A stretch of DNA of 64,000 bases from Tannerella sp. (GTDB lineage Bacteria; Bacteroidota; Bacteroidia; Bacteroidales; Tannerellaceae): assembly GCA_031277335.1 (NCBI GenBank), contig JAITMM010000237.1, positions 1 to 64,000 on the forward strand, in the 5' to 3' direction. The notes under the pieces were generated by a model. It was not told the origin of the DNA, searched no databases, and saw nothing but the letters and a program-made list of their open reading frames with translations. A program made the position numbers and the translations under genes. Below, in pieces: positions 5,505-23,451 of the stretch (position 1 is the first letter of the stretch; every line of letters starts with the position of its first letter).

Positions 5505-6353
5505 ATGTTAAGATATTTAGAAATTTCAGTGATATTTTTCCTGTTTTTAACAGGTTGTAAAAACAAACAAAATGCTGATATTAAAGAAGATATAAGAGTT
5601 GAGAATGATATAAAATTCGATTCGATTGAAGTTGACGTGGAATATTACCTGCTGGGAGACACTGCCAATCCCAACTGTTCTCTGCAATCCAAATTCATTT
5701 ATCCTGCTGAATACAAGGATATTGAAACGCTTGAAAAAATAAAAATGCAGTTCGTGGTTGACTTTTTCGGCGAAGATTACAGGGGCTTGCAGCCCGGAGA
5801 AGCGATTGAACGGTATAAAAATGCTTATCTGACTGAATATAAGAAACTTGAACGGGAATTTTCAAGAGATCCTGCCGAGAAATCGGCATATTGGTACAAT
5901 TATTACGAATCAACGAATAATGAAATCATATTCAATGAGTTAAACCTCATCAGTTACTGTGTAACCCTGAATTGCTATACCGGCGGCGCACATGGAAGCA
6001 ATGGGTATAATAATCGCATAATAGATTTAAAATCAGGGAATAAACTGGAAGAAAAAGATATTTTTACGGATAATTTTCACGACGAACTCACCTCAATCAT
6101 TGTGGATGAACTTGTCCGGAAATTTGGACTGGAAAACGCCGCTCAACTCGAAGATTCGGTACCCATATTTAATGTAAGCGAAATTTCGCCGAATAATAAT
6201 TTATTAGTTGATAATGAGGGAATTATCTATACTTACAACGAATATGAAATAGCGCCTTACTCGGTCGGAAAAATTGACGTGCTGTTGCCTTTCGACAAAA
6301 TCGAACATTTGTTAAATAAAAAAAGTCCTGTATATCAGTTTGTTAAACAATAA
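5505..6353 (+). CDS. Lipoprotein with DUF3298/RsiV-like domain
   Basis: Lipobox FLFLTGCKNK; LNCYTGGAHGSNGYNNRIIDLKSGNKL; DLLPFDKIEHLL-like C-terminus. Confidence 0.7.
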   Translation: MLRYLEISVIFFLFLTGCKNKQNADIKEDIRVENDIKFDSIEVDVEYYLLGDTANPNCSLQSKFIYPAEYKDIETLEKIKMQFVVDFFGEDYRGLQPGEAIERYKNAYLTEYKKLEREFSRDPAEKSAYWYNYYESTNNEIIFNELNLISYCVTLNCYTGGAHGSNGYNNRIIDLKSGNKLEEKDIFTDNFHDELTSIIVDELVRKFGLENAAQLEDSVPIFNVSEISPNNNLLVDNEGIIYTYNEYEIAPYSVGKIDVLLPFDKIEHLLNKKSPVYQFVKQ

Positions 6354-6354
6354 T

Positions 6355-6975
6355 ATGGAAATCGTCAAAAAATATTTTTCCCACATCAGCGCGACGCAGG
6401 AAGCGCAATTTGCCGCACTCGAAAATTTATACCGGGACTGGAACGGAAAAATCAATGTTATTTCGCGTAAAGATATTGATAATCTGTATGTTCATCACGT
6501 TTTACATTCGCTGGCAATTGCCAAATTCACCACATTCAGAGCAGGAACAAAAGCGCTTGACGTCGGTACGGGAGGCGGTTTTCCGGGTATTCCGCTTGCC
6601 GTTTTATTTCCCGACGTTCATTTTCATCTGATTGACAGCATCGCCAAGAAAATCAAAGTGGTGCAATCTATCGCGGAAGCCTTAGATTTACAGAATGTTA
6701 CGGCACAGCAATGCCGGATAGAAGACGAAAAAAGCCGGTATGATTTTGTGCTTAGCCGTGCCGTGATGCCCTTGCCGGAACTGGTAAAATTAGTGCGAAA
6801 AAATATTGACAATCAGCAGTGTAACGCTATTCCCAACGGATTGATTTGCCTGAAAGGCGGCGATACCCGGAAGGAAACGGCTTCTTTCGCTAAAAACGTT
6901 ATTATTCAGGATCTTAGCAACTATTTTAAGGAAGAATTTGTTGAAACAAAAAAAATAATATATTTACCGATATGA
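6355..6975 (+). CDS. rsmG: 16S rRNA (guanine-N7) methyltransferase RsmG; stop TGA overlaps the next start (ATGA)
   Basis: LDVGTGGGFPGIPLAVLFPDVHFHLIDSIAKKIKVV motif I. Confidence 0.93.
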   Translation: MEIVKKYFSHISATQEAQFAALENLYRDWNGKINVISRKDIDNLYVHHVLHSLAIAKFTTFRAGTKALDVGTGGGFPGIPLAVLFPDVHFHLIDSIAKKIKVVQSIAEALDLQNVTAQQCRIEDEKSRYDFVLSRAVMPLPELVKLVRKNIDNQQCNAIPNGLICLKGGDTRKETASFAKNVIIQDLSNYFKEEFVETKKIIYLPI

Positions 6976-7631
6976 TTAAAGTTCAACGATTTACATTCAA
7001 TTTTTTTGCCGAAAACACCTATCTGGCTTATGACGAAACGCGGGAAGCCGTTTTGATTGACTGCGGCTGTATGAACGGCAGGGAAGAAACCGTTCTGTCG
7101 AATTTCATCACAATGCATCAACTTGATTTAAAGCGACTTATATGTACACATTACCATACGGATCATGTCATTGGAAATCCCTTTATTTATCGCACTTATG
7201 GCTTGAAACCCGAAATACACGCGGGCGAACGGGCTCCGGGCATGCCTTCCCTGAAACAGCAAGCCGCGATGCTGGGTATGATGACTAATCTTGAAGAAGT
7301 TGATACGGAGCATTTTATCGAGGAAGGCGAAGAAATCCGCTTCGGCAATTCGGCGTTGAAAGCATTTTTGGTTCCCGGACATTCGCCCGCAAGCCTTGCC
7401 TACTACTGCCAAGACGGCAAATTCGTTTTCACGGGAGACGCTCTTTTTCAGGGTACTATCGGACGTACGGATTTGTGGGGCGGTGATTTTGAGACGCTTA
7501 TATCGAGCATTCAAAACAAACTTTTCACGCTGCCCGACGATACGGTCATCTATCCCGGACACGAATCTTCCTCCACCATAGGCATTGAAAAACAGACCAA
7601 TCCGTACTTTATATCCAATAAAAATCTCTGA
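6972..7631 (+). CDS. MBL-fold metallohydrolase (glyoxalase II-like)
   Basis: THYHTDH, VPGHSPASLAYY, FTGDALFQGTIGRTD motifs; ends in TGA. Confidence 0.9.
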   Translation: MIKVQRFTFNFFAENTYLAYDETREAVLIDCGCMNGREETVLSNFITMHQLDLKRLICTHYHTDHVIGNPFIYRTYGLKPEIHAGERAPGMPSLKQQAAMLGMMTNLEEVDTEHFIEEGEEIRFGNSALKAFLVPGHSPASLAYYCQDGKFVFTGDALFQGTIGRTDLWGGDFETLISSIQNKLFTLPDDTVIYPGHESSSTIGIEKQTNPYFISNKNL

Positions 7632-7693
7632 CGTCAAATCACAAGATGTCAGAGATACAAAAAAATTTATTATTATGGAAATGAAATCATTAG

Positions 7694-7742
7694 TGATTCC
7701 GGAGCGACTCGAACGCTCGACCCACAGCTTAGAAGGCTGTTG
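7694..7742 (-). tRNA. 3'-half fragment of tRNA-Arg(TCT); probable att site at the host/phage boundary
   Basis: Reverse strand ACAGC-CTTCTAA-GCTGT (anticodon TCT), T-arm GAGCG-TTCGAGT-CGCTC, acceptor 3' strand CGGAATC-A; no D-arm or 5' acceptor strand follows. Confidence 0.78.
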
Positions 7743-7883
7743 TTTCCTTCTATATTATCAGGTACTTACAAAGGAATTGTAAATTATTTGTAAATTACCT
7801 TTTTGCGGGCCAAAAACTCTTATCGAAATCCGGTGCAAAGATACAACAAAAATTTCAAATACATCTTACTGCTGCATTCTTTT

Positions 7884-8111
7884 TTAGGGCGGAAGATCTC
7901 CGATCTTTTCGTAGTACTCTCCGGAAATTTGGGGTCTTTGATGTTCCACGATACGGTATTTCAACATGAAACCGTTAATATTGGATTCATTGTCCGTTGA
8001 ATTTATCTCCTGACATTCTTTAATATGTTGATACATGAGATTTTCCAAAGTCTCTTCCGTTTCCCGTTCGAGTATTTGCCAAGTTCTATTTTCGGGACGA
8101 TTGTTTGTCAT
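7884..8111 (-). CDS. Hypothetical small phage protein
   Basis: ORF in a tightly packed leftward operon. Confidence 0.5.
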   Translation of the reverse strand: MTNNRPENRTWQILERETEETLENLMYQHIKECQEINSTDNESNINGFMLKYRIVEHQRPQISGEYYEKIGDLPP

Positions 8112-8122
8112 TGCAGCATTTT

Positions 8123-8365
8123 TTATTGAATATAACCGTAATATTCAGAAACTTCATCCATAATTTCCCTGTCATAGACAATATCATCGTCAAATTTCTT
8201 TTTCTGAATATAGTTTAGAAAGGAATTGACACTGTTAAACAGGGTAGTATGGCGTTCAAACAGACCGCCTGCTCCCTGATAATACCGTCCCTTCTCATCC
8301 TGTCGGGCATATCGGACATACAGTTCGTAATATCCCGGCTCTATGATAACTTTCTTTTCCTTCAT
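8123..8365 (-). CDS. Hypothetical small phage protein
   Basis: ORF; start overlaps upstream stop in ATGA. Confidence 0.55.
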   Translation of the reverse strand: MKEKKVIIEPGYYELYVRYARQDEKGRYYQGAGGLFERHTTLFNSVNSFLNYIQKKKFDDDIVYDREIMDEVSEYYGYIQ

Positions 8366-8529
8366 CGTTCAATGATTCCTTCCATTATTAATTTATTGTG
8401 CAAAACATCCATGCACGTTTCAAAGGAAAGCAATCTCACGGCAAAGTTTAAGTTCATTCCACAGGCAAGTTCAAAAACTTCTCTAATACTTGCCTTCTGT
8501 TTCCTTGTCAAGTTTCTGTACCATTCCAT
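8362..8529 (-). CDS. Hypothetical 55-aa protein terminated by TGA (below the supplied ORF-length cutoff)
   Basis: MEWYRNLTRKQKASIREVFELACGMNLNFAVRLLSFETCMDVLHNKLIMEGIIER-TGA; TGA overlaps the ATG of the next gene. Confidence 0.6.
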   Translation of the reverse strand: MEWYRNLTRKQKASIREVFELACGMNLNFAVRLLSFETCMDVLHNKLIMEGIIER

Positions 8530-8532
8530 CGT

Positions 8533-8754
8533 TTAATCTTTAGAAATCGTTACTTTCCCTATTTTTTTCTCCGTATTCAAATCAAATTTCCAATCGACTG
8601 CATCATCGGGTAAAAAGGACATGATTCCTATCTTGCCGTGCATTCCACAATGATTCCGCACTAATTCAATGGCTTCATCCCTGCTTTCAGCTTTGACTTT
8701 GAAATAGCCATTGTAAATGAATCGGGTATTTACCTTATAAAATTTCTTTTCCAT
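8533..8754 (-). CDS. Hypothetical small phage protein
   Basis: 73-aa ORF in leftward operon. Confidence 0.55.
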   Translation of the reverse strand: MEKKFYKVNTRFIYNGYFKVKAESRDEAIELVRNHCGMHGKIGIMSFLPDDAVDWKFDLNTEKKIGKVTISKD

Positions 8755-8759
8755 ATCTT

Positions 8760-9194
8760 TTATTTTTTTAAGTTATCCAGATAAAAATATTCCGTATAAA
8801 ATTCTTCAAGTGTATTTTCCCCGATGGCAATGTACCTTGCAAATCCATCCGAATAAAAATATATTTCAAAGAGTACCAGTTTCTGTTCCGGTTTTGTAAA
8901 GGATTCCGGTTCATTATTCTCCATCTCTATATATGCCCATTCTTCCGTACCCAGGAAATCGTCAATGTCAAAATCCGAATCTTCGTCAATCCTGTAGAAA
9001 TCAACATTGGTATCCCGATAAACCAGTTTCACGAAGCCTTCCGCTTTTGTTAACCGAGTGATGTCGCTTCTTTTCCCTTGCAACTTTAACCATTTATCTG
9101 TCAGATGGATAATGGCAAAGTCGCAACTATCCCATTCGCTTTCCGTATAGGCTTTGATGAGAATCCATTCTGTTGGCTTATCCGATTTTTTCAT
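8760..9194 (-). CDS. Hypothetical protein
   Basis: 144-aa ORF in leftward operon. Confidence 0.6.
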   Translation of the reverse strand: MKKSDKPTEWILIKAYTESEWDSCDFAIIHLTDKWLKLQGKRSDITRLTKAEGFVKLVYRDTNVDFYRIDEDSDFDIDDFLGTEEWAYIEMENNEPESFTKPEQKLVLFEIYFYSDGFARYIAIGENTLEEFYTEYFYLDNLKK

Positions 9195-9205
9195 AACTTT
9201 ATCGT

Positions 9206-10075
9206 TTAAATTTTACTGAAATTTTGTTTTGTTAGTACATCACGGATATTTCCGATGAACCGGAGCGTTTCCGTGGCATTTTTAACTATTTCCTGCCGGA
9301 TGGGAACAGATTCCCTGACAGATACCGGAGTATATTTTACAATATTTTTACACCGGTCAATGATACTTCCTATCCTGCTATCGTCAAAGAAATTCAGTTT
9401 TGGCGCTGTTTCCATTAACGATTTCAGGTTGTTAATCAGGCTGTCCCGAAAAACGGAATTATCTTCAATTCTCCTGACAATCAGACTGATGGATTCTTCA
9501 AAGCGTTCCATTAACGAATCGGCTGCTCTTTTTATTTTTTGACTGTTCCGTTCCTCGAGTTCTTTTCTCAACAGATTGTTTTCCTTTTCGGCGATGGAGA
9601 GAACGAAATGATCCGGGTCTTCTACGGGTCTTGTTTCAATTTTGATGGCAAAAGCCTGTCTGACTTTTTCTTTGGAAGGATAGTTGGCTGGTACATACAG
9701 TTCCTTTAAACGTAAGGAGGCGTCGGCAAGTATCCTGTCGTAGTCGTTGTAAAAGTTTTGGACTGCGTCATTAAACTGATTGTTTAAGACTGTTATCTCC
9801 TTCATATAGTTCATGTAGTTACCTGTCGGAAGCAAACGCGCTCCTTCATTATCCCAGGGCAGGGTATTGTCATAGTGAAATATCCTGATTCTACCGGCAA
9901 TCTTCTGAATGGCGTCCAGTTTGTCGCTTTCTACCAGTTTCTTGTTGTATCTGCCGGCGTCTTTTACCTTGTACAGGGATTCTACTTCGGTCGTTACTTT
10001 TTTGTCATACTTTCTTGCTGTCCACTGTGAAATTACCAGTGTGACGAGCATTGCGGATTTTTGTAATAAACTCAT
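9206..10075 (-). CDS. DUF3150-like protein
   Basis: 289-aa helical ORF directly downstream of metallopeptidase/VWA and MoxR ATPase genes, as in DUF3150 cassettes. Confidence 0.6.
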   Translation of the reverse strand: MSLLQKSAMLVTLVISQWTARKYDKKVTTEVESLYKVKDAGRYNKKLVESDKLDAIQKIAGRIRIFHYDNTLPWDNEGARLLPTGNYMNYMKEITVLNNQFNDAVQNFYNDYDRILADASLRLKELYVPANYPSKEKVRQAFAIKIETRPVEDPDHFVLSIAEKENNLLRKELEERNSQKIKRAADSLMERFEESISLIVRRIEDNSVFRDSLINNLKSLMETAPKLNFFDDSRIGSIIDRCKNIVKYTPVSVRESVPIRQEIVKNATETLRFIGNIRDVLTKQNFSKI

Positions 10076-10167
10076 AGTTATTGATTTGAAAATTTGAAAA
10101 TTTGAGGATTAGGCGAAGGCGGAAGACAGAGGCGAAGAACTATGCCTTTTGCCTATTGCCTTTTCCT

Positions 10168-11298
10168 CTAAAATAATACTGTTTCTCCGAAGGGCGGTTT
10201 GAATTTCTGATTTTTCGTTATTGCCCAGATGGTTGTATAACCCGGTTCGTCGGGAAAATCGTTGAACAGTCCATCGGTAAAATATACCAGTACCTTACAT
10301 TCGGGTATATGTTCTTCGATGTACCTGAATACCGGTATTATGTCCGTACCTCCACGTCCGACAGGATAAACGGGCTTGTCTTCGAGTTCGCTGACGCTCC
10401 GTATATCGCAATCGCAGTAGATAACCGTAACCGGCAGTTTTACCGATTCGCTTATTTCCTTCATCTCGGTATAGAAATCGGAGAGCATGTCGTCGTCAAT
10501 ACTTCCGGAAGTGTCAATAGCGACTACCGTTTTGCCTATTTCCGGCGATTCGAGCGTTGGCAGATAGATACCGCGATAGATGTATCTCCTGTTCGGTTTA
10601 GACCACGTGTAATCGTTGGTCGTTATTTCCGACATGAGATGGCGCAATTGCGTCTTCCAATCTATTTTGGGATAGAGATATGCTTCCACCATCTGTTCAA
10701 TACCTCCGGGTATGTTTCCGGCGTTCTTTCCTGCCATTACCGCCTGAACAATTTTGCCCATGGTTTCGATTTCCATCTGTCTCTTTTCTTCGGGCGTATT
10801 GGCGGGAGCGTCTTCTATTCTTCCAAAGTCGTGCGCCTGTGGCTTGTTATCGGGCGTGCCATCTCCGGTACCGGTACCTTCATTGTCTCCGTTTCCATTG
10901 TTGTCCGATTGATTCGATTGAAGGTCTGCATAGATGGTTTCCGCATTCATGTTATCGTACCGGTTGTTATACAGTCCGTTTTTTGGCAGTTTGAACTTAT
11001 TGTTTAATAGTCCATTGATGGCATAGTCACAGGCTTTATTCCAGAGTTCCGTGTCCCTTCCTTCGCGTCTAAGGTGATGAAGGTTTACGATATGCAATAC
11101 CTCATGCGCGAGCAGTCCAACCGTTTCTTCCACCGTCATGCCATTGATATAATCCGGATTGTATTTCAAGATGATACCGTTAGTGGAAGCCGTCTTTTCA
11201 TTAATGTCTTCCACGTATTTCAAGCCCAGGGCGATAGTGGCGAAGAAGGGTTGTGATAAAACCAGGGATGTTTTTGCCTTTTCGATATTTGACTTCAT
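10168..11298 (-). CDS. VWA-like / putative metallopeptidase (DUF2201-type)
   Basis: HEVLHIVNLHHLRR zinc motif plus VVAIDTSGSIDDDMLSDFYTEM VWA/MIDAS-like motif. Confidence 0.8.
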   Translation of the reverse strand: MKSNIEKAKTSLVLSQPFFATIALGLKYVEDINEKTASTNGIILKYNPDYINGMTVEETVGLLAHEVLHIVNLHHLRREGRDTELWNKACDYAINGLLNNKFKLPKNGLYNNRYDNMNAETIYADLQSNQSDNNGNGDNEGTGTGDGTPDNKPQAHDFGRIEDAPANTPEEKRQMEIETMGKIVQAVMAGKNAGNIPGGIEQMVEAYLYPKIDWKTQLRHLMSEITTNDYTWSKPNRRYIYRGIYLPTLESPEIGKTVVAIDTSGSIDDDMLSDFYTEMKEISESVKLPVTVIYCDCDIRSVSELEDKPVYPVGRGGTDIIPVFRYIEEHIPECKVLVYFTDGLFNDFPDEPGYTTIWAITKNQKFKPPFGETVLF

Positions 11299-11358
11299 GT
11301 TTAATCGTTTAGTTGAGATGAACGGCTGTTCATCTTTACATGGACGTTCATTTTTATG

Positions 11359-12378
11359 TTAAATACTGTTCAGGTACTTGCAAGCCCAGTTGATATAGGC
11401 TAAGGTATTGACAAATTCATCCCATCGCAATTGCGTTTCCTTGACCATGACGGTAGCAAATTCCGTGGGCATTCGCTGCACGTATTTCATAATGGCGTCG
11501 CAGGTAACGTCCCTGCAATTGGACGCCAGCATTCCGGTAAGGGCATACAATGTGGCAGGATCGGTTGGAACGGGCGTTTCTTCCGGGTTCATGATGATTC
11601 TGTCAATGCTTGGCAGTTTTGTCCATACTTTGAGAAAAGACATGTATTCGATGGCAAATCCCTGTCCCGCTGCGCCTGCAAAGACGTCGAGCATAATATC
11701 TTCGGACAATCCCTGATTTTGCATTCTGCCTACGGCGGCGATTGTTCTCGGCGACGGCGAATTGATTATGTCTCTTGTCGGTTTGAAGTCATCAAGCAGG
11801 TTAGGTCTGAAACGGATAAACGAGATAAGCGGTACGGGCATGTTGTTGTTTATCGCCCATTCTATCCAGTCGTCGGTATCCGTTTCGAGTTCGAGGATGG
11901 TAGCGAATCTGGACTTGACGGGTTCGAGAATACCCTGCACGCCTGCCAAATCATTGCGTCTGTTGGTAGCGGCACAGAATATTACGTGATCGGAGACGTT
12001 GAAACCGTTAATCTTACGCTCTAATAATAAGCACATTAAACTTTTCTGTACGGATTCAGACGATTGCCCAATATCGTCCATGAAGTACAGTAACGGTTTA
12101 TCGGCTTTGATTAGCCGGTTCAATTCTCCAAAGGGAAGGAAATGCGCTTCCCTGTCATCGGGACTTGCAAAGGGCAATCCCTTGTAATCGGTAGGGTCTG
12201 ATACTACGGGATGCGAGATGACAATATCCATTCCCAGTTCTTCGGCTACCTGTTTTACCACGGAGGTCTTCCCGGAGCCGGGTTTTCCCTTTATCAGTAC
12301 GTTTTCCCTGTTCTGAAACATGAATTTCAGAATTTTATGCAGGGTCTTGGGTTTTATGGCTGTTTTTAATTCTTGCAT
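11359..12378 (-). CDS. MoxR-type AAA ATPase
   Basis: Walker A IKGKPGSGKTSVV, Walker B LLYFMDDIGQ, sensor FCAATNRRNDLAG. Confidence 0.85.
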   Translation of the reverse strand: MQELKTAIKPKTLHKILKFMFQNRENVLIKGKPGSGKTSVVKQVAEELGMDIVISHPVVSDPTDYKGLPFASPDDREAHFLPFGELNRLIKADKPLLYFMDDIGQSSESVQKSLMCLLLERKINGFNVSDHVIFCAATNRRNDLAGVQGILEPVKSRFATILELETDTDDWIEWAINNNMPVPLISFIRFRPNLLDDFKPTRDIINSPSPRTIAAVGRMQNQGLSEDIMLDVFAGAAGQGFAIEYMSFLKVWTKLPSIDRIIMNPEETPVPTDPATLYALTGMLASNCRDVTCDAIMKYVQRMPTEFATVMVKETQLRWDEFVNTLAYINWACKYLNSI

Positions 12379-12379
12379 G

Positions 12380-12440
12380 AGTGTTCAATTGTTTAATCGT
12401 TTAGTTGTTTAACTGTTTAGTCGTTTGATATTAGAATTAT
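12380..12440 (-). repeat. Heptad-type intergenic repeat in leftward arm, inverted to match transcription
   Basis: GTTCAATTGTTTAATCGTTTAGTTGTTTAACTGTTTAGTCGTTTG, reverse complement of the AAACGACTAAACAGTTAAAC module. Confidence 0.8.
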
Positions 12441-12443
12441 CAA

Positions 12444-13055
12444 TTAGCCGTGAATCCATTCCAGTTCGGCTTTGTTTTCTTCGGTTGGCATTTCTTCATC
12501 GCCAATGGTTTCGATGCAGGTGAGCAACATGGAACTGTGTTCGATTGCGCCGTTATCGTTGTCGGTTTTCAGGATGAAGGATGTAATGGGAGTCATGTAG
12601 GCATAGTCCATACCGAATGCGGAAGTGTAAAAACATGTAGCATCGTAGATTTTGTACTTGTCCGTTACGCCGGTAAGCAGTATGAATCTTTTCAGTCTTT
12701 GTTTTACTTCCATCGTATTCTTTCTGAAATATCTTTTTTTGCCTGTTGTTTCATCCACCAGTCCGTTTTCGGGGAACAGTTGCATGAGCGCCCTGATAAA
12801 CGAATCGTCATTAACAACTTCATTGATGGCTTCAAGTGGCAGGTTTGCCGTATTGGGCGTTGTGGCGCTGACAAGGATATTTCTGATGTCCGTGCGTGAA
12901 ACCTGCGTATTCTTTTCCATCATGTCGTTGTCTATCAGTCTTTCGATAACCGTTCGAACATCTTCTTCTCCGGTAAACGACGCCAGGAGAAGGAGAAATT
13001 CGGGTTTCGTGAGATTGTTCTCCTTCAATATTTCTTCGTTAATCGTTAATGTCAT
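12444..13055 (-). CDS. Hypothetical phage protein (start probably MTLTINEE)
   Basis: ~200-aa ORF upstream of MoxR gene in the same operon. Confidence 0.6.
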   Translation of the reverse strand: MTLTINEEILKENNLTKPEFLLLLASFTGEEDVRTVIERLIDNDMMEKNTQVSRTDIRNILVSATTPNTANLPLEAINEVVNDDSFIRALMQLFPENGLVDETTGKKRYFRKNTMEVKQRLKRFILLTGVTDKYKIYDATCFYTSAFGMDYAYMTPITSFILKTDNDNGAIEHSSMLLTCIETIGDEEMPTEENKAELEWIHG

Positions 13056-13485
13056 AATAACCAATGAGTTTAAAGTTTCTAAAATTTATCACGGCTCTAA
13101 TTTCCATCAGAAAATTGGCTCCGAGTATTCCTGCTATTTCTCTTCCCATGAAATATTCCCGGTTAAAATCATGCTGCGAAAGAAGGAACCGTATCTTGAA
13201 GCGGTTGCTCTTGAATCTTCTCTGTATCATTTTTCCCATCGAAAGTGTAATCCAGTGTTCTTTGGATTTCTCCCTGCTGTTCAGCGCGATCAGGGTATCC
13301 GTTTTTTCATTGCGTACTGTTTCCATTTCCACGACAGCATCTCCGGAGATGACACAGGTATTGGCCCCCGTATCGAGAATGAAATTATACTCTTTTTCGT
13401 TGTGCCATGCCTTGACTATCAGTATGTTCCTTTCAATGAGTACTTCGCGGTCTATCTCTATTTCAATTACCTTTTTCAAGCTCAT
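13039..13485 (-). CDS. Retropepsin-like aspartyl protease, copy 1
   Basis: FILDTGANTCVISGDAV motif and HDFNREYFMGREIAGILGANFL second half. Confidence 0.7.
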   Translation of the reverse strand: MSLKKVIEIEIDREVLIERNILIVKAWHNEKEYNFILDTGANTCVISGDAVVEMETVRNEKTDTLIALNSREKSKEHWITLSMGKMIQRRFKSNRFKIRFLLSQHDFNREYFMGREIAGILGANFLMEIRAVINFRNFKLIGYYDIND

Positions 13486-13906
13486 GTCCGGTCAGTTTAC
13501 AGTTCTTATAGTCAATGATAGCTCTCACGTCATGCAGGAAATCGTTTCCGAGTATTCCGTGTATCGGTTTGCCGAGGAAGAGGTTTTCATCCGGCTCGTC
13601 TTCGACGAGGTAGAATGTAACCATGAAACGGTTTGATTTACGCTCTCTTTCTTCGCTATTGCCGATGGCTATGAGTATTCTGTGTAAGTCCGATTCTCCG
13701 GAATTGTGCAGTGTTACAAGATTTGCCTTTCCGACATTTTCATTTTCGAGAATCTCCAGCAGGGAACGGGCGATGACGCTACCGTCGGCTCCCGTATCGA
13801 GCATGAAATTCAGTTCGTTTTCCTTGTGGAAGGCTGTTATAACCGGGAAATTCATCTTTTCGAGTATTTCCCGGTCTATTTCTATTTCAAATATTTTCTT
13901 TTCCAT
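13463..13906 (-). CDS. Retropepsin-like aspartyl protease, copy 2; terminates at TGA
   Basis: FMLDTGADGSVIARSL; IHGILGNDFLHDVRAIIDYKNCKLTG; C-terminus aligns with copy 1 when TGA is a stop. Confidence 0.72.
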   Translation of the reverse strand: MEKKIFEIEIDREILEKMNFPVITAFHKENELNFMLDTGADGSVIARSLLEILENENVGKANLVTLHNSGESDLHRILIAIGNSEERERKSNRFMVTFYLVEDEPDENLFLGKPIHGILGNDFLHDVRAIIDYKNCKLTGHELEKGN

Positions 13907-13911
13907 TGGTG

Positions 13912-14160
13912 TTATTTTTCTACGGAAGCGCTGAACGAATCCATTTCAAGTATGCCGGAACACCAGTCTTCATAGAACTCATCCATGGCATGTTCGGCGG
14001 CAATCATTTTCAACTGCTGTTCGTTTAATGAACTGAAAGACCTTTTATTGTCTCCGTCGTTCCATACGGTTTCGCCGCTTTCAAACTTTTTCCGCACGTC
14101 TTCCATTGTTACGGAATAGATTCTTGAGATTTTTACGTCAATTTGATTTTTGCTGTTCAT
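13912..14160 (-). CDS. Hypothetical protein
   Basis: 82-aa ORF in leftward operon. Confidence 0.5.
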   Translation of the reverse strand: MNSKNQIDVKISRIYSVTMEDVRKKFESGETVWNDGDNKRSFSSLNEQQLKMIAAEHAMDEFYEDWCSGILEMDSFSASVEK

Positions 14161-14172
14161 AATTTTATTTGT

Positions 14173-14778
14173 TTATAAGTTTTCTTCTATCCATTTCATA
14201 GGAGATTCATAAGTTGATGTATCGTACCATACTTTATAAATAATTTTACATACTTCCTCTCTGTTCCATGTATCTTTTACGGGAAAAATTGAAATGGTGT
14301 TGTCAGGTGCTATTTTTAAATAATAAATTGAATCTCCATTTTCATCAACATTTGCAACATATCTTTCATATTCAACTATTACTTCCCAAATACCATTATT
14401 TTCACAGAACTTTTTAATAAAATCGTCCGGGATGGATGGCAGGCTACATTGAGTAGTGAAATCCGGAAATTGATAGCAATCCAATTTCAATGACGAATCG
14501 GTAGTGGCTATAATCTTTTTGTAATCTTGTCTTACCTCCCAATACTCCCTGTCGGAAGTAACGGCTTTTCTAACTTTGCTACAATCGTCAATGTACCAAT
14601 TTCCAATTTTTATATCATCGTCAGATAAAACGTAAATGTTTTGTGGAGTCAATCCATTTATTATTCTACTGTAATTGTTGCTGGCTATAAATAAATCTCC
14701 TTTTACTTCTACAATTATTTGTCCTTTTTGGGCTATTTCATTAACGGGAAGCATGACTATTTTACATTTTTTTTTCAT
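14173..14778 (-). CDS. Hypothetical protein
   Basis: 201-aa ORF in leftward operon. Confidence 0.6.
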   Translation of the reverse strand: MKKKCKIVMLPVNEIAQKGQIIVEVKGDLFIASNNYSRIINGLTPQNIYVLSDDDIKIGNWYIDDCSKVRKAVTSDREYWEVRQDYKKIIATTDSSLKLDCYQFPDFTTQCSLPSIPDDFIKKFCENNGIWEVIVEYERYVANVDENGDSIYYLKIAPDNTISIFPVKDTWNREEVCKIIYKVWYDTSTYESPMKWIEENL

Positions 14779-15847
14779 TTTCGTATATGTTAAAATTTAC
14801 ATTCTTGAGTTCTTTTTTCAGTCTGTTGAGAAATGTTTCATCCGCCGTATCCTTATAGCAAAAGATATGAATGGACGGATGTTTGGAGCGTAACAGCCGT
14901 CCGACGATTTGCAGTTGCTGCTGTCTGTTTGCGGGGAGTTGTATGATAACGCCATGATCCGTATCTTTCAGGTTTACGCCTTCCTGCAACATGCCCACGA
15001 CATAGAGTTTATCCCTTTCATGTTTATTGAAATCCCTGATTTTCTGCTGCGGTTTCCTTATTTTGCTGTGCATGGCTGCATTGAAATCGTCGTCCAAGGC
15101 ATTGCACTGCTCAATGCTGGAACAGAAAACGATATGTCTCCTATTCTCCATTCCGGAGAGAAAGTCCCTTACCTTTTCCGTCTTTGATTCTCCCAGGAAA
15201 AGTTTACGCTGCAAGCCTGTTCTTTTAAGTCTATCAGTGATTTTTTCCTTTCTAATACTGTCCGGTTCCATGTCAATTTCCAGTTTCAACCGTTCGATGG
15301 CAGCGTCGTAGTTTTTGCTGATTTCCCTTTCTTTTGGCGTCATGTCGAGATGGATGACATTGATTTCGGGCTTGGCAATGATCTTTTCGCTGATGGATGT
15401 TGCCAGGTCGTTTCTGATAATGTTTATTCCACTGAATATCGGAAATATTTCCTTTAACTTATCATCCATTATGGTTGCAGACAATCCGATGAAGCGCATG
15501 TCGGGGTTTCCCTTTTTCATTTTAGCCAGTAATTTCCGTCTTTTGGCGCTTAGATGATGGCATTCGTCAGCGATGACAACACCGTATCTGTTCCATATTT
15601 CCTTTTCAAGGGAGGCGTAACAGACGATTTTATAGTTGCAGAAATCCCTGCCATACTTTTCTATTTCTTCCTCCCAGAGGTTTATGTGCGCCGTTTCGCT
15701 TACCAGTATGAGTTTGCGTACGGGACTGCCGTCGAGTATGGCGATGGCGATGGACGTCTTGCCCATGCCCGTTGCCAGGTTAAGCACGACATTTTTGCCA
15801 TACTGATAACTTTTTATTGCCTTTTCGCGTATTTCTTCTCTTGTCAT
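14762..15847 (-). CDS. SF2 DEAD/DEAH-box helicase
   Basis: NLATGMGKTSIAIAIL (Walker A), VVIADECHHL (DECH), FIGLSATIMDD (SAT), QIVGRLLRSKHPSIHI (motif VI). Confidence 0.85.
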   Translation of the reverse strand: MTREEIREKAIKSYQYGKNVVLNLATGMGKTSIAIAILDGSPVRKLILVSETAHINLWEEEIEKYGRDFCNYKIVCYASLEKEIWNRYGVVIADECHHLSAKRRKLLAKMKKGNPDMRFIGLSATIMDDKLKEIFPIFSGINIIRNDLATSISEKIIAKPEINVIHLDMTPKEREISKNYDAAIERLKLEIDMEPDSIRKEKITDRLKRTGLQRKLFLGESKTEKVRDFLSGMENRRHIVFCSSIEQCNALDDDFNAAMHSKIRKPQQKIRDFNKHERDKLYVVGMLQEGVNLKDTDHGVIIQLPANRQQQLQIVGRLLRSKHPSIHIFCYKDTADETFLNRLKKELKNVNFNIYENEKKM

Positions 15848-16194
15848 TATTTTAATTTTGAATTGAAAGGCTCAATGAATGAAGGATTGTCTGTGGCATA
15901 GTCTGTTATAGTATCGATATCGATGAGAAAGCGGAGATCGTTTGAGGTTGTGAAATTGGCGTATGCTGTTATCCCGATATAGTTATCGGTAAAATTGTAA
16001 GTATTGCCGCTTGCCCATATTGCTCTTGCCAGTTCCTGTTCCCTGTTGCGATAGATTTCGCTGTAGAAATCTTCATCGTTATCGAACACTGTCAATTCGG
16101 TATCCGTTTGATTGCAATATCCGGTGTATATTTCCATTAAGGTACTGTCGCTGCAATTTTCCAGATATTCCCTGATTTTCTGTTTTCGTGTCAT
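15847..16194 (-). CDS. Hypothetical protein
   Basis: 115-aa ORF; TAATG overlap with helicase start. Confidence 0.55.
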   Translation of the reverse strand: MTRKQKIREYLENCSDSTLMEIYTGYCNQTDTELTVFDNDEDFYSEIYRNREQELARAIWASGNTYNFTDNYIGITAYANFTTSNDLRFLIDIDTITDYATDNPSFIEPFNSKLK

Positions 16195-16385
16195 TGTTCT
16201 AATCGTTATTATTGAAAAATATATTTTTTATAAATTCAACGATATCCATTATTATGCAAACCATAAGTAAGATAGCAAAAAAACCTATTACGGTCTTATC
16301 TTCCTGTTTTTCGGGAGCAAGAGCATCTGAAATGATTAATCCTGCAAGTAGTATAACTGTTCTCATAATTTTTATAGTAAAAAGT

Positions 16386-16745
16386 TTATTGTTCAAGGTT
16401 TTGAGCGTAATAGTCAAGCGTCTTTTGGAGCGCTTCGAGACGCTTGGCATACCATAATTCCAATTCGGATAAGGTTGTAACATTATAAACACTTTTGCCA
16501 TAAAATGATTTATGGTAGGTGTCCCTAATTATGGTGATTCCATTTGCCTCTTCAACATCGCGAATCAATTCTTCGATTAATTCTTCACTGTTCGGATATT
16601 CATTTGTGGCATGATGAAAAAGAGTACAGATTCCGAATGCGCTTAAACGATAATCTTCCTCCGAATGGAAATTATCCGATTTCATTATGCAATTGATTCT
16701 CCAGATTATTTTTCTGATGATGATTGCTTTTTCTTCTGTTGTCAT
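16386..16745 (-). CDS. Hypothetical protein, paralog of 17087-17461
   Basis: Shared pattern (M)TTEEKxIII...RxINxI...GIC...LELWYAKRLEALQKTLDY. Confidence 0.6.
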   Translation of the reverse strand: MTTEEKAIIIRKIIWRINCIMKSDNFHSEEDYRLSAFGICTLFHHATNEYPNSEELIEELIRDVEEANGITIIRDTYHKSFYGKSVYNVTTLSELELWYAKRLEALQKTLDYYAQNLEQ

Positions 16746-17074
16746 TGCGTCTCCTGTTTTAACTGTTCGATTTTTTTCTTCTCCTTTTGGATGATGGATT
16801 GAAGGTACTGTATATTTTTCTCCGTATATTCAATGAGCATCAGTTTGGCTGTTTTCTCGCTGTCGGTCATGTTGCGGTGCGAAAATGTTTCAGATTTGGA
16901 GTTATAGTACGCCTTTATGCTTATTGTAAAATTTCCCTTGAAAATGCATTTTATATCACCGTCGTCCAATGTATCACACAATTCCATGGATGTGCACTGT
17001 ACCTCTTCGAGTTCATGTGTCCCTAAATGGGACGGTCTCAGATACCAGTAAAATTTTCCCGTTTCTATTTTCAT
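16742..17074 (-). CDS. Hypothetical protein terminated by TGA (ATGA overlap)
   Basis: 110-aa ORF whose TGA overlaps the ATG of 16386-16745. Confidence 0.6.
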   Translation of the reverse strand: MKIETGKFYWYLRPSHLGTHELEEVQCTSMELCDTLDDGDIKCIFKGNFTISIKAYYNSKSETFSHRNMTDSEKTAKLMLIEYTEKNIQYLQSIIQKEKKKIEQLKQETQ

Positions 17075-17086
17075 ACTATTTTCTGT

Positions 17087-17461
17087 TTAGAGTTTATTTT
17101 TTAGATATTCCAGTGTCTTTTCAAGCGCTTTCAAACGCTTTTTATACCATAGATTCAGAAGTTCCATGGTATCAATCTTGGAAAGTTCTATTTTGCAGAA
17201 TGACCAGTAATATTTTCTTCTGTTAATGGTGAATCCGGTTGCATCATTAATGTCATTTAATATTGCATTTAAACAGGATTCAGATTCTTGATTTGGAATA
17301 TCCAATCCTTTTACAATAAATATACCTTCGGTTATAAAACGGCATATTCCATGGACGTGAAACTGTTTAACTCCGTTTTCCTCGCTGTATGCCAGGATAT
17401 TGTTTATTTTGCGGATACATTCCCCGATGATGATTATTTTTTCTTCCGTACTTATTTCCAT
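17087..17461 (-). CDS. Hypothetical protein, paralog of 16386-16745
   Basis: STEEKIIIIGECIRKINNIL...LNLWYKKRLKALEKTLEYL. Confidence 0.6.
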   Translation of the reverse strand: MEISTEEKIIIIGECIRKINNILAYSEENGVKQFHVHGICRFITEGIFIVKGLDIPNQESESCLNAILNDINDATGFTINRRKYYWSFCKIELSKIDTMELLNLWYKKRLKALEKTLEYLKNKL

Positions 17462-17481
17462 AATTGATTGTCTTTATCTGT

Positions 17482-17637
17482 TTATTTGCATTCGATGTAT
17501 GATTCCGTTATCCTTCCGTTCAAATCGTATGTCTCGACATTTTTACCGTTCACTGTTGTTTGTCGCTTGATACATCCGCATTTGACGCATTTTCTTGTGC
17601 CTTTGTTCGGATAGTTTATCCAGTAATGCACTTTCAT
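17482..17637 (-). CDS. Small Cys-rich protein (start at ATG overlapping upstream TGA)
   Basis: MKVHYWINYPNKGTRKCVKCGCIKRQTTVNGKNVETYDLNGRITESYIECK. Confidence 0.55.
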   Translation of the reverse strand: MKVHYWINYPNKGTRKCVKCGCIKRQTTVNGKNVETYDLNGRITESYIECK

Positions 17638-17789
17638 TCCGGATGTTCGCATGATTCTTGTTCTATTAAAGTTAATAAATCGTCTAAAAGTGCACTTTCG
17701 GCGGCTTCGCATGTTCCATAGAACTTGCTCATTTCAAATTCAAGATAGGAAGCAATGTTGTCTTCCATATATTCCCGTCCGTAACTCAT
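17634..17789 (-). CDS. Hypothetical 51-aa protein terminated by TGA (ATGA overlaps at both ends)
   Basis: MSYGREYMEDNIASYLEFEMSKFYGTCEAAESALLDDLLTLIEQESCEHPE-TGA. Confidence 0.55.
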   Translation of the reverse strand: MSYGREYMEDNIASYLEFEMSKFYGTCEAAESALLDDLLTLIEQESCEHPE

Positions 17790-18331
17790 AACTGTTTATA
17801 CGAATTAATATCAAATGCCATACCTGTGTTGATCAGATTACGGTAATCTATGAAGCGCGAGTGCATATAATCTAAAATTTGATATTGTTTCGTTACAGGG
17901 TTACCATAAGAATCAGGTGATGATACTATAATACAATGTCTTTTGGTGCAATATCTCACACAGAGAAAAGCATCGGACATGGCACACGGTGATTTTAATA
18001 CGCTATAAAATTTAGATTCTTTCGAATGAAATTCCCATTTTTCTTCCGGAAATTCTATTTTTGCCAGTTCAACGATAGGTATTTCTATTTTATCTTCATG
18101 CGTTATTTCCCTGTATATGTCTGAAAGAGGACGCAATAACGGTTTAATATTTTTGATAACCTCATGGCAAGATAACAATCCCTTATCCGTTTCTACCGGT
18201 ATCAGTTCAACAGTTTCCAGCATTGGATTGACCGTTTTGATATAGTATCTTTCTTTACGGCATATTACTATCGGTTTATGGGCAATGTAACCCTGTATGT
18301 CCTGTAATTTTAATATTCTCTTTTTTTTCAT
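17786..18331 (-). CDS. Hypothetical protein terminated by TGA, paralog of 18343-18861
   Basis: Shared LRPLSDIY/LRPVSDLY and DYMHSRFIDYRNLINTG/DYLHSRFIDYRNLIDAG. Confidence 0.65.
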   Translation of the reverse strand: MKKKRILKLQDIQGYIAHKPIVICRKERYYIKTVNPMLETVELIPVETDKGLLSCHEVIKNIKPLLRPLSDIYREITHEDKIEIPIVELAKIEFPEEKWEFHSKESKFYSVLKSPCAMSDAFLCVRYCTKRHCIIVSSPDSYGNPVTKQYQILDYMHSRFIDYRNLINTGMAFDINSYKQL

Positions 18332-18342
18332 ATCCGTTTTAA

Positions 18343-18861
18343 TTATTTATAGGGGTTTGTTTCTATATCATAACAGGAAACTGCCAATCCTGCGTCTATA
18401 AGATTTCGATAGTCAATGAAGCGACTGTGGAGATAGTCGAATACCTTATACTGATTTTTGATAAATGAAGGTTTGCCTTGATTATTTAAATACAAATAGA
18501 ACTCTCCGTCATCAGTAGAAAATTCAATCTCTCTATCTTCCGACCAGGCACATTTACTGAATTTTGAATGTCTCCACTTTTTTCCCGGAATGGATATTTC
18601 CGCACATTCCATAATCGGGATTTCTTCCTTTCCATTATGCTGAATGGGCTTGTACAGGTCAGAGACTGGACGGAGAACGGGCTTGTATTGCTGGCTTGCC
18701 ACCCATTCATCATCTTCCGCATCGTCCTGTAACTCAATGCCTCTTATTAAATTGCCAACATTGCAAAAATCAATTTCCTCGATACAATCATCGCAATTCA
18801 AACAATGCAATCCGTATGGCAAATACCCCGCAACGTCTCTTAATTCCAATTTCTTTTCCAT
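18343..18861 (-). CDS. Hypothetical protein, paralog of 17786-18331
   Basis: 172-aa ORF; shared DYLHSRFIDYRNLI motif. Confidence 0.65.
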   Translation of the reverse strand: MEKKLELRDVAGYLPYGLHCLNCDDCIEEIDFCNVGNLIRGIELQDDAEDDEWVASQQYKPVLRPVSDLYKPIQHNGKEEIPIMECAEISIPGKKWRHSKFSKCAWSEDREIEFSTDDGEFYLYLNNQGKPSFIKNQYKVFDYLHSRFIDYRNLIDAGLAVSCYDIETNPYK

Positions 18862-19044
18862 AATTTTATCAATTTATTTATAAAGTTTTTTTTACCGCAA
18901 AATTAATTGCGAATGTTCATATTATATGTTAATTTTAAAAATCGTGTCAGAGATTTTCTTAACTCACTGATTCTCACATGCTATTTTGCATAGTTTTTTT
19001 ATTTTTAATTTTATTCTGCGTTTCCGACTTGGCTCAAGCTTTCA

Positions 19045-19341
19045 CTATTTCCGTATATTCAGGAATCTGATTCCGGCATTATGAGGCTTTACTTCTTCCA
19101 AGCAAAGTTCAATACACGCCGCATCAAACATCAGGTTATCCACTCTCCTGCACTCCGGCGTAAGCGTAATCAAAAACGCCCGTTCCCAGGCAGCATATTC
19201 CGACTTACTCAATGTCTCGTCATAGTCATACCACATAGCTATTCGACCTTCTTTCTTAGCCAGAATACGCGCCCTTTTCAAATGCAAGTGCATATAGTAA
19301 CGCTCCTGCTCTATCGCTCTTTTATATATTTCCGGATCCAT
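19045..19341 (-). CDS. Hypothetical protein
   Basis: 98-aa ORF in leftward arm. Confidence 0.5.
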   Translation of the reverse strand: MDPEIYKRAIEQERYYMHLHLKRARILAKKEGRIAMWYDYDETLSKSEYAAWERAFLITLTPECRRVDNLMFDAACIELCLEEVKPHNAGIRFLNIRK

Positions 19342-20659
19342 AGTCTTTCAATTTATTTATATTATTTTCCTGTTATATTTCAATGCAAACCGCAAACAGT
19401 TTACATTTTTCCGCTTTTTATTGATCTTTTTACCATTTCAACGTCTCGAAAACAAACAATAACATCAAAAATAGCCCCTACACATATCTGTAACGCCTTT
19501 TTTATCCCCCTTACCGCTTATATAGCGGCAAATTTATTATTTAACTAACTGATATTTAGCATTTTATGTGTTGATTTTGATAATGTTTATTTTGTATATT
19601 TATGATGGTGAGGAGATTATCGCATTAACAGCCGTGTTAATAAACGTTATCTACCTGTAAAACAACGTATTGTGGTTGTGTTGTAGTCGTCTTTGTTTAA
19701 TCTGTTGATTTACAGTGTTTTGATAGTGCTTGTAGTCGTTCTGTAGTCGCTGTAGAATTACAGTGGCTGTAATGCAGATTAAACCTTTTGGCGTTTGGCA
19801 AGTCTTGTGCGCACACGTGTGTATGGGTGAGCGTCGTGTGCGCGAGGCTTGCCGTTTCTTCCAAGCCGCAGATTATTTTCGGGTGTTGCTTTCCTGCGGC
19901 TTGTTCCCTTGGATAAACGCGAGAGTGATTTCACGACCGGGATGGGAGTCTCTCGCGTACATCTCTGCCCACGCGCGGGTGGGTGGGCGCCCGTTCTTCT
20001 TTTCTTTTTTAAATAGGATAGAGAGTATGAGAGAAAGGGAAACTGTTTTTTCTTTTCTTCTTTGGCGATTGAAATTTTGTGGTTGAAAGTTCAAAGTTCA
20101 AGATTCCGTGTTTAACCTGAAACCCTGAACTCCGAACTTTTGCCTGTTGCCCTTGCCTTAGAAGACGAACCTGAATCCTTCCTCTTCCATCCGGTAGCCG
20201 TCTTCAATCTAGCGGAGCCTTTCCTCGCGCTTTCCTTCCCTGAATATGCGAATGGCTTTTTCTATGGCGTTCTCCGCTCTTTCGTTTGCTGCTGCCTGCG
20301 GCTTTCTGAACCGCTTTCTGCCGAATACCTTGCCTGTGGCGTTGTAGCCAAGTACTTTTGTTGCTTTTTCTGCTTGCATGACTGTATTATTTTGTAAACC
20401 TAATATTTCAATTGTAAAAAAGGCGCAGGGAATATGACCCGTCATTACCCTGTTTTTGGGCATAAAAAATGCGTATAACAGTTTTATTTTCAAAAATGGA
20501 TATGTTGTTCCACTTTTAATAATATGCGCTTAAATCGCTTTTAAATGCCAAATAACGGGATCATCGTTCCTGCGCCCCTTGCAGACTGTTCTCCGGACTT
20601 ATTCATCTGCGTCCTCCCTGTTTCCCGCCAGGAGGGTCGTGTTTTCATTGTTGAACTGT

Positions 20660-20790
20660 GTGTAATTGTTTAGTTGTTAAGGCGTTTAATCGTTTAGTTG
20701 TTCGATGTCAGCCTTTGCCTCTTGCCTATCGCCTGACGCCTCATTCGTAATTGAAGATTCGTAATTCGTAATTGCTCTTGCCTTGTATTC
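20660..20790 (-). repeat. Modular intergenic repeat block in leftward arm, partly coding
   Basis: GTTTAGTTGTTAAGGCGTTTAATCGTTTAGTTG, CCTTTGCCTCTTGCCTATCGCC, CGTAATTGAAGATTCGTAATTCGTAATTG. Confidence 0.8.
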
Positions 20791-21084
20791 CTGTATCTCG
20801 TCCCACAGTTCCTCGCAGCGGAGGTCGGTGCCGTCTTCCCACAGCACGCTGTCTATATAGTGCGATATTCTGAGGTATTCGTCCTTGTCGATCAGGTCGC
20901 TGTAATACAGCGTGTCTATCTGTTCCTGTATATTTCCGACTGCCTCGATCGACTGTGAGTAGTCAAGCCGCTCCGTCTTGCAGTTGTTGTACTCGTGATT
21001 CCGGAACATTATCGCTGTACTCAATATTGCTATTACTCCAACGAGCAGGAGCACGAGCATATTCATTGCTGTTTCTCTTTTCAT
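20686..21084 (-). CDS. Small membrane protein with C-terminus encoded by intergenic repeat modules
   Basis: MNMLVLLLVGVIAILSTAIMF TM; C-terminal ITNYESSITNEASGDRQEAKADIEQLND* is the AATTACGAATT / AGGCAAGAGGCAAAGGC / AACAACTAAACGATTAA repeat in frame. Confidence 0.55.
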   Translation of the reverse strand: MKRETAMNMLVLLLVGVIAILSTAIMFRNHEYNNCKTERLDYSQSIEAVGNIQEQIDTLYYSDLIDKDEYLRISHYIDSVLWEDGTDLRCEELWDEIQEYKARAITNYESSITNEASGDRQEAKADIEQLND

Positions 21085-21229
21085 GTCTGTATGTTTTATT
21101 GATTTGTATTCTGAAAAAAAGGACGCCGACTTTCGACGGCGCCCGTAACTCTGGCTTCATCCCGCATCCTGCGGTCTTTTAGCCTTGAATAAAATATTGC
21201 TTTTTGGAGAGAAGCATAACTCCCGACGG

Positions 21230-21508
21230 TTACACGAAGCCGTCGATCTGATTGTTGCCGCGCAAGCCAAAGACAATCTTTACTTCGCCAGTTTCGTCGT
21301 CAGCCGTCTCATACATCGAGACCCGTCCGTCAGCCTTTGCCGCTTTAAATAATCCGGGAGCGTCTCCACCAAGCGCCGCAGTCATCTTGGGCGAACAGAA
21401 TCCGCTCTTGCCGCCGAAGCGATACAGGTGAATGGTTGCTCCGTTGAACGGAACAACAGTGTACTCTACTTTATCGGTCGTGCCGATTTGAACTTCCTTG
21501 TTAATCAT
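21230..21508 (-). CDS. Hypothetical 92-aa protein
   Basis: MINKEVQIGTTDKVEYTVVPFNGATIHLYRFGGKSG...; clear ORF in leftward arm. Confidence 0.6.
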   Translation of the reverse strand: MINKEVQIGTTDKVEYTVVPFNGATIHLYRFGGKSGFCSPKMTAALGGDAPGLFKAAKADGRVSMYETADDETGEVKIVFGLRGNNQIDGFV

Positions 21509-21857
21509 AATTTGAATTGTTATAGGGTTTATATGTCGAACGGAATGGGGAGTTCAACTTTGGATTTAAAGGGGGGGTGAAGGAAATGCCATCCGATAGC
21601 CCCGGGCGCATCGTGGTTAATCCTCTCTCACATGCCTAACTTGAATTTTTTAATCCTCTCTCGCGTGCGTATCCTAAAAAAAGTCGCAGTCCTGAAATCG
21701 GTGTATGGGGGGGTATGTTAAAGTGAAGTTGTGATGGGCGGGTGGCTTTTTAGAGTGCAGTTGTAAGTGTGTGGAGTGTAGTAGGAATTGGGGACATGTT
21801 GGGGGGGGAGATTATATAATAAAATATGTACAGGTACCAAATAATAATAATGGACTT

Positions 21858-23057
21858 TTACGCTACAATTCGTAAATTCATATTTTGACGCTTCTTCGCC
21901 CCGACCAATGCCGGAAACTCCACGTCCCCTTTCCCGCCTATTGCAGGTGTTTTTAAATTCAGTTTTTGCAAACCGAATCTCTTTATATTGTTCGCAGCAA
22001 GAATATCCCTGTCGTGGACTGTTCCACATGCCGGACACTGCCACTGCCTGTCCGACAGTTTCAGTCCGTCATGCTTGAAGCCACAGGTACACAACTTGCT
22101 GCTCGGTTCAAACCTGCCAATTCTTATCAGGTTTTTACCGTGCCATTCACACTTGTAATTCAAAATACGGAAGAACTCGCTCCACGAGACAGATTGAATG
22201 CTTTTAGCCAGATTGTGATTCTGTAACATACCTTCCACATTCAAGTCTTCAATGACAACAGTTTGGTTCTCGCTGACTATCATTTTAACTGCCTTGTGAA
22301 GAAAGTCTTTCCGTTTATTTGCTATCTTTTCATATCTTTTCGCAAGCATGAAGACTGCCATCATTCTCCGGTTGCTGCCCTTCTGCTTACGCGAAACTCT
22401 CCGATGCAATACCTTTATTCTCTTTTCATCGTTTTCGTAATATTTTGGGTTTGATATTTTTGTTCCGCTGGATAACGTTGCAAAGTCCTTTATGCCAACA
22501 TCTATCCCAACGGTACTGTTTTCTTCAATCTTTGCCTTTTCCGGCAACGGTTTTCCATCATCGACCAACACAGATGCGTAATATTTATTTGTTGGCGTTT
22601 GAGAAATTACAATACTCTTTAAAATTCCCTCAAACTTTCTGTCCAGAGCAAATTTTATCTTTCCGATTTTTAGGACTTTGATCCGTTTTTTATCGAAATC
22701 TATTCCTGTACCATTTATATTTTTGAAACTTTTTCCTGAATAATGTTTACTTTTGAATTTTGGAAAGCCATATCCATGTTTAAAAAAATGATTATAGGCA
22801 GAATCCATGTTACGGATTGCCTGTTGAAGTATTTCGCTGGACACTTCATTTAACCATTCGTATTCCGGTTCCTTTTTAAGATACGTTAGTTCTCTGCTTA
22901 ATTCCGTTACACTTAGAGTTCTTTTTTCAGTTTCATATACATTTTTACGTCGTGCTAAAGCCCAGTTATAGATATAGCGGCAGCAGCCGATACTTTTGTT
23001 TATCAGTACCTGCTGTTCCCTGTCGGGATAAATTCTATATTTATAATCTTTCAACAT
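21858..23057 (-). CDS. tnpB: TnpB-type RNA-guided nuclease (IS200/IS605 OrfB family), no TnpA seen
   Basis: RuvC-like VGIDVGIKDFATLSSG, VVIEDLNVEGM, DRDILAANNI; zinc finger CTCGFKHDGLKLSDRQWQCPACG; N-terminal KYRIYPDREQQVLINKSIGCCRYIYNWAL. Confidence 0.92.
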   Translation of the reverse strand: MLKDYKYRIYPDREQQVLINKSIGCCRYIYNWALARRKNVYETEKRTLSVTELSRELTYLKKEPEYEWLNEVSSEILQQAIRNMDSAYNHFFKHGYGFPKFKSKHYSGKSFKNINGTGIDFDKKRIKVLKIGKIKFALDRKFEGILKSIVISQTPTNKYYASVLVDDGKPLPEKAKIEENSTVGIDVGIKDFATLSSGTKISNPKYYENDEKRIKVLHRRVSRKQKGSNRRMMAVFMLAKRYEKIANKRKDFLHKAVKMIVSENQTVVIEDLNVEGMLQNHNLAKSIQSVSWSEFFRILNYKCEWHGKNLIRIGRFEPSSKLCTCGFKHDGLKLSDRQWQCPACGTVHDRDILAANNIKRFGLQKLNLKTPAIGGKGDVEFPALVGAKKRQNMNLRIVA

Positions 23058-23114
23058 ATCTTTTTTAATTCGTAATTCGTAATTTTTAATTCGCCTTCGC
23101 CTCTTGCCTTTCGC

Positions 23115-23414
23115 CTAATTTCCTCTTACTTTGTTGAGGTAGTCTTCGGTGTTTGTATGTTCGAGCCATGACATTGCTCTTTTGCGGAGACCGTCGATGT
23201 AGTTCTGGTCGTATATCTGTTTTGGCTTTTCCATTTCTTCTTCTACGGATATTATGTCTTTTAAGATTATAGGACTTTCGTAAATATTTTTGTTTGCCTG
23301 TATCCAGTCTTCCGTGAATTTCATGTAGAAATCGACATCGTAATCGGGTGTGTCTTCTACGCCTAATGGCAGGGAGATTGTTATATCTGTTTTGTTTTCT
23401 GTTAAATCTTCCAT
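23115..23414 (-). CDS. Hypothetical protein
   Basis: 99-aa ORF in leftward arm. Confidence 0.5.
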   Translation of the reverse strand: MEDLTENKTDITISLPLGVEDTPDYDVDFYMKFTEDWIQANKNIYESPIILKDIISVEEEMEKPKQIYDQNYIDGLRKRAMSWLEHTNTEDYLNKVRGN

Positions 23415-23451
23415 AAAAATCAGTATAAAATATTGATAATAAATAATTTAG

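Follow-up and report, generated by a model that had tools for sequence, protein, structure and literature searches.

Among the crAss-like phages, the closest described relatives of the phage reported here are the Steigviridae (beta crAss-like phages: crAss001, DAC15, cr85_1 and crAssBcn). The crAss001 and crAssBcn isolates lack an integrase, and crAss001 gave no stable lysogens (PMC6235969, PMC10354031). A 2023 review concluded that true lysogeny of crAss-like phages finds no support in the evidence (PMC10136315). Because the isolates have neither integrases nor stable lysogens, lysogeny has been set aside for these phages, and their months-long persistence alongside their hosts still awaits an explanation (PMC6235969, PMC10354031, PMC10136315). 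Two incomplete epsilon crAss-like prophages were reported in Parabacteroides in 2024 (PMC11054128), and a pig-gut survey counted 12 crAss-like members among predicted prophages (PMC12454387). For the Azobacteroides phage ProJPt-Bp1, which is crAss-like and has a Bacteroidales symbiont as its host, a tRNA-Gln was discussed as a possible attachment site; the tRNA gene is full length, and no integrase and no host junction were found (PMC5478533). Recoding of late genes is already known in crAss-like phages (PMC7886860). A literature search covering few subscription papers turned up no Steigviridae phage for which a tRNA attachment site had been defined.

We analyzed a 64,000-nucleotide window, the first 64 kb of contig G000:C190 (104,297 bp, hereafter C190), which belongs to a metagenome-assembled genome (MAG) of 3.43 Mb in 284 contigs obtained from a single metagenomic assembly. 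The comparison set comprised 41 genomes of the genus, which include Tannerella sp. MAGs presumably from termite guts; a wider portal search covered 395 order-level genomes. The phage on C190 shares with the Steigviridae a similar late-gene order, giant RNAP-like ORFs and a crAss-type helicase but, in contrast to the isolates, it has a probable tRNA attachment junction. The Parabacteroides prophages are likewise crAss-like sequences inside Bacteroidales chromosomes, whereas they belong to another crAss-like group and are incomplete, and the passages of that report consulted here describe no tRNA attachment site (PMC11054128). ProJPt-Bp1 is a distant relative, with a portal identity of 23.6%.

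A recoded crAss-like phage adjoins chromosomal genes

Positions 1-7631 of C190 are chromosomal and encode an MFS transporter, a rhamnose isomerase, an FGGY kinase, an AraC-type regulator, a DUF3298 protein, GidB/RsmG (6340-6975, plus strand; Pfam GidB, 3e-35) and an MBL-fold protein (6972-7631, plus strand; Pfam Lactamase_B, 2e-32), which confirms the rhamnose/rsmG/MBL neighbourhood that a preliminary description had placed at this border. Beyond position 7742, phage sequence extends over at least 96.5 kb to the contig end at 104,297. Its left arm (7884-24226, minus strand) contains small ORFs and genes for DUF3150, VWA/DUF2201 and AAA ATPase proteins, a crAss-like helicase and a TnpB-like transposase. 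A crAss-like late arm in which TGA encodes tryptophan follows on the plus strand (24431-64000 in the window, and on to 104,297). It encodes TerL (32095-36129) with an intein carrying a LAGLIDADG homing endonuclease, the portal (36433-38742) and an MCP (51978-54642) split into two ORFs by a GIY-YIG/HNH homing endonuclease ORF, all on the plus strand; the MCP interruption is probably a self-splicing intron.

TerL, portal, MCP, virion proteins and a giant RNAP-like ORF have counterparts in bajarodcaudo virus 1 and Steigviridae, although the RNAP-like genes lie on the late strand, unlike in bajarodcaudo virus 1. The portal shares about 50% identity with those of Asinivirinae members and 40% with that of phi14:2, against mostly 20-30% for other crAss-like phages, and the MCP is 53-56% identical to those of Steigviridae. 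With a crAss-type TerL, and with its portal and MCP nearest Steigviridae, the phage is assigned to the Crassvirales by pairwise identity. We found no close relative in the viral_contigs collection by portal, VWA protein or core pattern, and no portal relative in the other 40 genomes of the genus; in the 395 order-level genomes no more than three crAss-like sequences came up, each of them distant and on a short contig. The 96.5 kb available from the incomplete contig revealed neither a crAss-like DNA polymerase nor a primase, and the polymerase was also not found in the rest of the bin. A DNA polymerase on contig C215 was rejected as a phage gene: it resembles host polA and has host genes next to it.

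For the helicase (14.8-15.8 kb), relatives occur among crAss-like and further Bacteroidota phages, and from this gene (14.8 kb) down to 8 kb the genes are tightly packed on the same strand. Given these relatives and this packing, the minus-strand left arm appears to belong to the crAss-like phage. The DUF3150, VWA/DUF2201 and AAA ATPase genes, a set with relatives in N4-like phages, occupy 9206-12378 (minus strand), and the VWA and AAA proteins (10-12 kb) resemble those of N4-like phages. An intact IS605 OrfB/TnpB-like ORF (21858-23057, minus strand) adjoins a full-length tmRNA match inside the phage (23449-23900, minus strand; Rfam RF00023, 97.6 bits), for which the predicted tag peptide is unusual.

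Many late genes, with ORFs of up to 6337 amino acids, are open only when TGA is read as tryptophan. TGA codons align to tryptophan in 16 of 27 residue-aligned positions, compared to 44 of 103 for TGG. A tRNA with a UCA anticodon, called as tRNA-SeC, is located at 26804-26877 (plus strand) and might act as TGA suppressor in the recoded late genes.

The border contains the 3′ part of a tRNA-Arg(TCT) that is intact in relatives

The attachment core at the border (7692-7742, minus strand) corresponds to the 3′ part of a tRNA-Arg(TCT), from about tRNA position 25 to the discriminator plus one flanking base. This segment matches tRNA-Arg(TCT) in 31 of the 41 genus genomes, mostly at 94-100% and in many cases at 98-100% identity, reaching 100% over 50-51 nt against intact congener genes, with 50/50 identities in several genomes (E about 1e-20). 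A chance match is excluded by these 50/50 identities together with the occurrence of the core only once on the entire 104-kb contig; the single copy also argues against two elements stacked at the tRNA-Arg. The congener genes run on into a normal 5′ half, whereas the window sequence does not. ARAGORN called no tRNA at the junction, and the Rfam tRNA model gave 7694-7759 a score of 31.3 bits (cut-off 29), in a fold whose D arm is collapsed and whose acceptor is mispaired. The preliminary description had assigned 7694-7760 to the 3′ half of the tRNA; the presence of a 3′ part only holds, while its span has to be corrected to 7692-7742, with 7743-7760 lying outside the tRNA. A group I intron in the anticodon was considered and rejected, since nothing interrupts the anticodon stem-loop and the break occurs at about tRNA position 25.

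Two relatives carry the unoccupied site that the preliminary description had proposed to look for. G011 is collinear with positions 1682-7742 of C190, from the rhamnose isomerase to the MBL gene, and repeats the order GidB/RsmG then MBL beside an intact tRNA-Arg, the alignment ending at 7742. G015 is 88.6% identical over 123 nt (7620-7742, across the 3′ flank of the tRNA); the match also ends at 7742, past which the G015 tRNA carries on into its normal 5′ half. The host right flank is untraceable, as the right flanks of this tRNA in six relatives have no genes in common.

An integrase-linked repeat lies at a fixed distance from the core

In G013, G054 and G055, an integrase gene starts near an intact tRNA-Arg(TCT), at 144-182 nt from its 3′ end, which makes this tRNA an integration hotspot of the genus. 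The tRNA-Arg(TCT)-adjacent integrases of G013 and G054 contain a Phage_int_SAM_5 domain (family A1). A direct repeat, WTTACAAATARWTTACA, is found directly 5′ of the start codons of A1 integrases, usually preceded by a TAnnTTTG promoter motif. Its pattern occurs at 14 sites in the 41 genus genomes, compared to none for the reversed control. Eleven of these sites are at A1 integrase starts, nine before a recognisable integrase and two before truncated start remnants, and nearly all of the eleven are beside the 3′ end of a tRNA-Arg, -Gly, -Lys or -Ala. The other three are on C190 (7778-7794), G009:C125 and G024:C169; the last (L165, 4106-4122) adjoins neither an integrase nor a tRNA fragment. In viral_contigs the pattern gave more than 100 matches, most of which such a large collection would probably yield by chance, and none was recognised as a crAss-like attP.

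On C190, the repeat TTTACAAATAATTTACA (7778-7794, minus strand) is a candidate arm-type integrase site, separated from the core by a phage P-arm spacer (7743-7777, minus strand). The distance from the repeat to the AGCC of the core is 39 nt, that is, the spacer plus the first 4 core bases. G009:C125 has the same arrangement: the repeat, 39 nt, AGCC, and then the 3′ half of a tRNA-Gly without its 5′ half. Between the two 39-nt stretches, 20 of the 39 positions are identical (shuffle p 0.003). The repeat thus keeps the same distance to the core in both cases, on what would be the arm opposite the integrase, and the integrase presumably binds it. A Bacteroidota-type promoter-like sequence, TTTG-N12-TATCTTTGCACC (7832-7861, minus strand), predicted by comparison with the promoter of the G015 tRNA, reads toward the core; in a circular phage it would point at the other phage end, possibly at the integrase.

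Like C190, the tyrosine-integrase elements of the genus in tRNA-Arg, -Gly, -Lys and -Ala (G013, G054, G049, G005 and G009) target tRNA 3′ ends, and they have the same repeat beside the core and a promoter motif before the repeat. Unlike C190, the G009:C125 element has no crAss-like genes and encodes a primase-helicase, a Lin1244-type protein and an S24 peptidase, a content that would fit a temperate phage.

C190 breaks off within the phage

The preliminary description had expected an integrase and an intact tRNA-Arg past the right edge of the window. C190 runs on for another 40 kb, which contain neither, and stops within a phage ORF of the RNAP and leucine-rich-repeat type, so that the right end of the phage is missing. 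Searches with PF00589, PF00239 and the A1 profile revealed no recombinase on C190, and the four tyrosine recombinases of the MAG (C212, C63, C197 and C203) were rejected as the phage integrase, none being near this core. There is no intact tRNA-Arg on C190, no second core or attL there or elsewhere in the bin and no matching tRNA 5′ half on any other contig of the bin, and the right end of C190 overlaps no other contig. Of a direct core repeat at both ends, a single copy is seen, with one end assembled.

Contig C107 of the same MAG carries a second RsmG-MBL locus, and its other tRNA-Arg(TCT), on C266, is 88% identical to the 7692-7742 stretch and has a different T stem. On account of these two loci the bin may mix two organisms, which leaves the junction within C190 unchanged.

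Discussion

We consider it likely, with a probability of roughly 0.8, that an A1-type integrase made this junction and that it represents the attR, or tRNA-fragment side, of a crAss-like prophage. Positions 7692-7794 are read as the attR core and P arm because the repeat is integrase-linked and its 39-nt spacing is shared with G009:C125. The insertion of a crAss-like phage into tRNA-Arg(TCT) by a core running from the anticodon to the 3′ end, as first proposed, is thus supported at the assembled end by the empty sites and by the repeat, found with the same spacing at a second half-tRNA junction; the far end is not on the contig. In this process, an A1 tyrosine integrase (Phage_int_SAM_5) would recombine a circular Steigviridae-related phage with the tRNA-Arg(TCT) of a Tannerella-type bacterium, exchanging strands within or close to the anticodon stem-loop. 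The attP would bring a tRNA 3′ part of its own, by which the tRNA would be rebuilt at the far end (attL); the displaced host 3′ part would stay next to the MBL gene, and the P arm of the phage, with TTTACAAATAATTTACA, would come after it. The integrase itself would be encoded on the minus strand, next to the intact tRNA, at the right end that C190 lacks. Points that speak against this reading are the absence of an integrase from the 96.5 kb of phage sequence, the missing attL, the origin of the contig in a single metagenomic assembly and the non-lysogenic behaviour reported for the known Steigviridae isolates (PMC6235969, PMC10354031).

An assembly artefact would account for the same contig if the assembler had joined a free circular phage (attP) and an unoccupied attB through their shared sequence of about 51 nt, in which case C190 would not represent a physical junction. 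The core is the only sequence that the two would share, the contig breaks before attL, and the possible mixing of the bin (RsmG-MBL on C107, the differing tRNA-Arg on C266) is compatible with such a join. We nevertheless regard it as unlikely: the names of related contigs contain k119, and if C190 was assembled alike, a 51-nt repeat would be too short to bridge. Moreover, even a chimera requires a phage endowed with the core and the arm, that is, with an attP, so that the phage would be integrative either way.

The similarity of the VWA and AAA proteins to N4-like rather than crAss-like phages could instead mean that a different A1-type element (7743 to about 12 kb, with the DUF3150, VWA and AAA genes) occupies the tRNA and that the crAss-like phage is joined to it or nested. 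The presence of one core copy only and the packed same-strand genes from the crAss-like helicase to 8 kb make this improbable. Even less credible is a reading without integration, in which the sequence would be either a tRNA pseudogene in decay or a modified gene for a tRNA-like RNA, driven by a promoter of its own. The promoter-like motif at 7832-7861 does resemble that upstream of the G015 tRNA, and the strand folds better than its shuffles (z -4), yet the 3′ part shows no decay, the integrase family to which the repeat and its exact spacing belong uses tRNA genes, and TAnnTTTG motifs precede the repeat at integrase genes too. We rejected a modified tRNA gene at 7743-7861 since the repeat and the G009 parallel explain this region better.

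With the junction read as the attR of a prophage, the phage would be expected to excise and to persist as a lysogen in living cells, and some crAss-like phages can probably lie dormant in their hosts. Whether C190 represents a temperate Steigviridae-related lineage that is specific for tRNA-Arg(TCT), uses an integrase shared across the genus and has recoded late genes that stay untranslatable until the phage suppressor tRNA is made seems to us evenly balanced. The tRNA core, the arm-type repeat and the candidate integrase family make lysogeny in Crassvirales directly testable, and stop-codon recoding of late genes could act as a prophage lysis gate in a host that uses the standard code.
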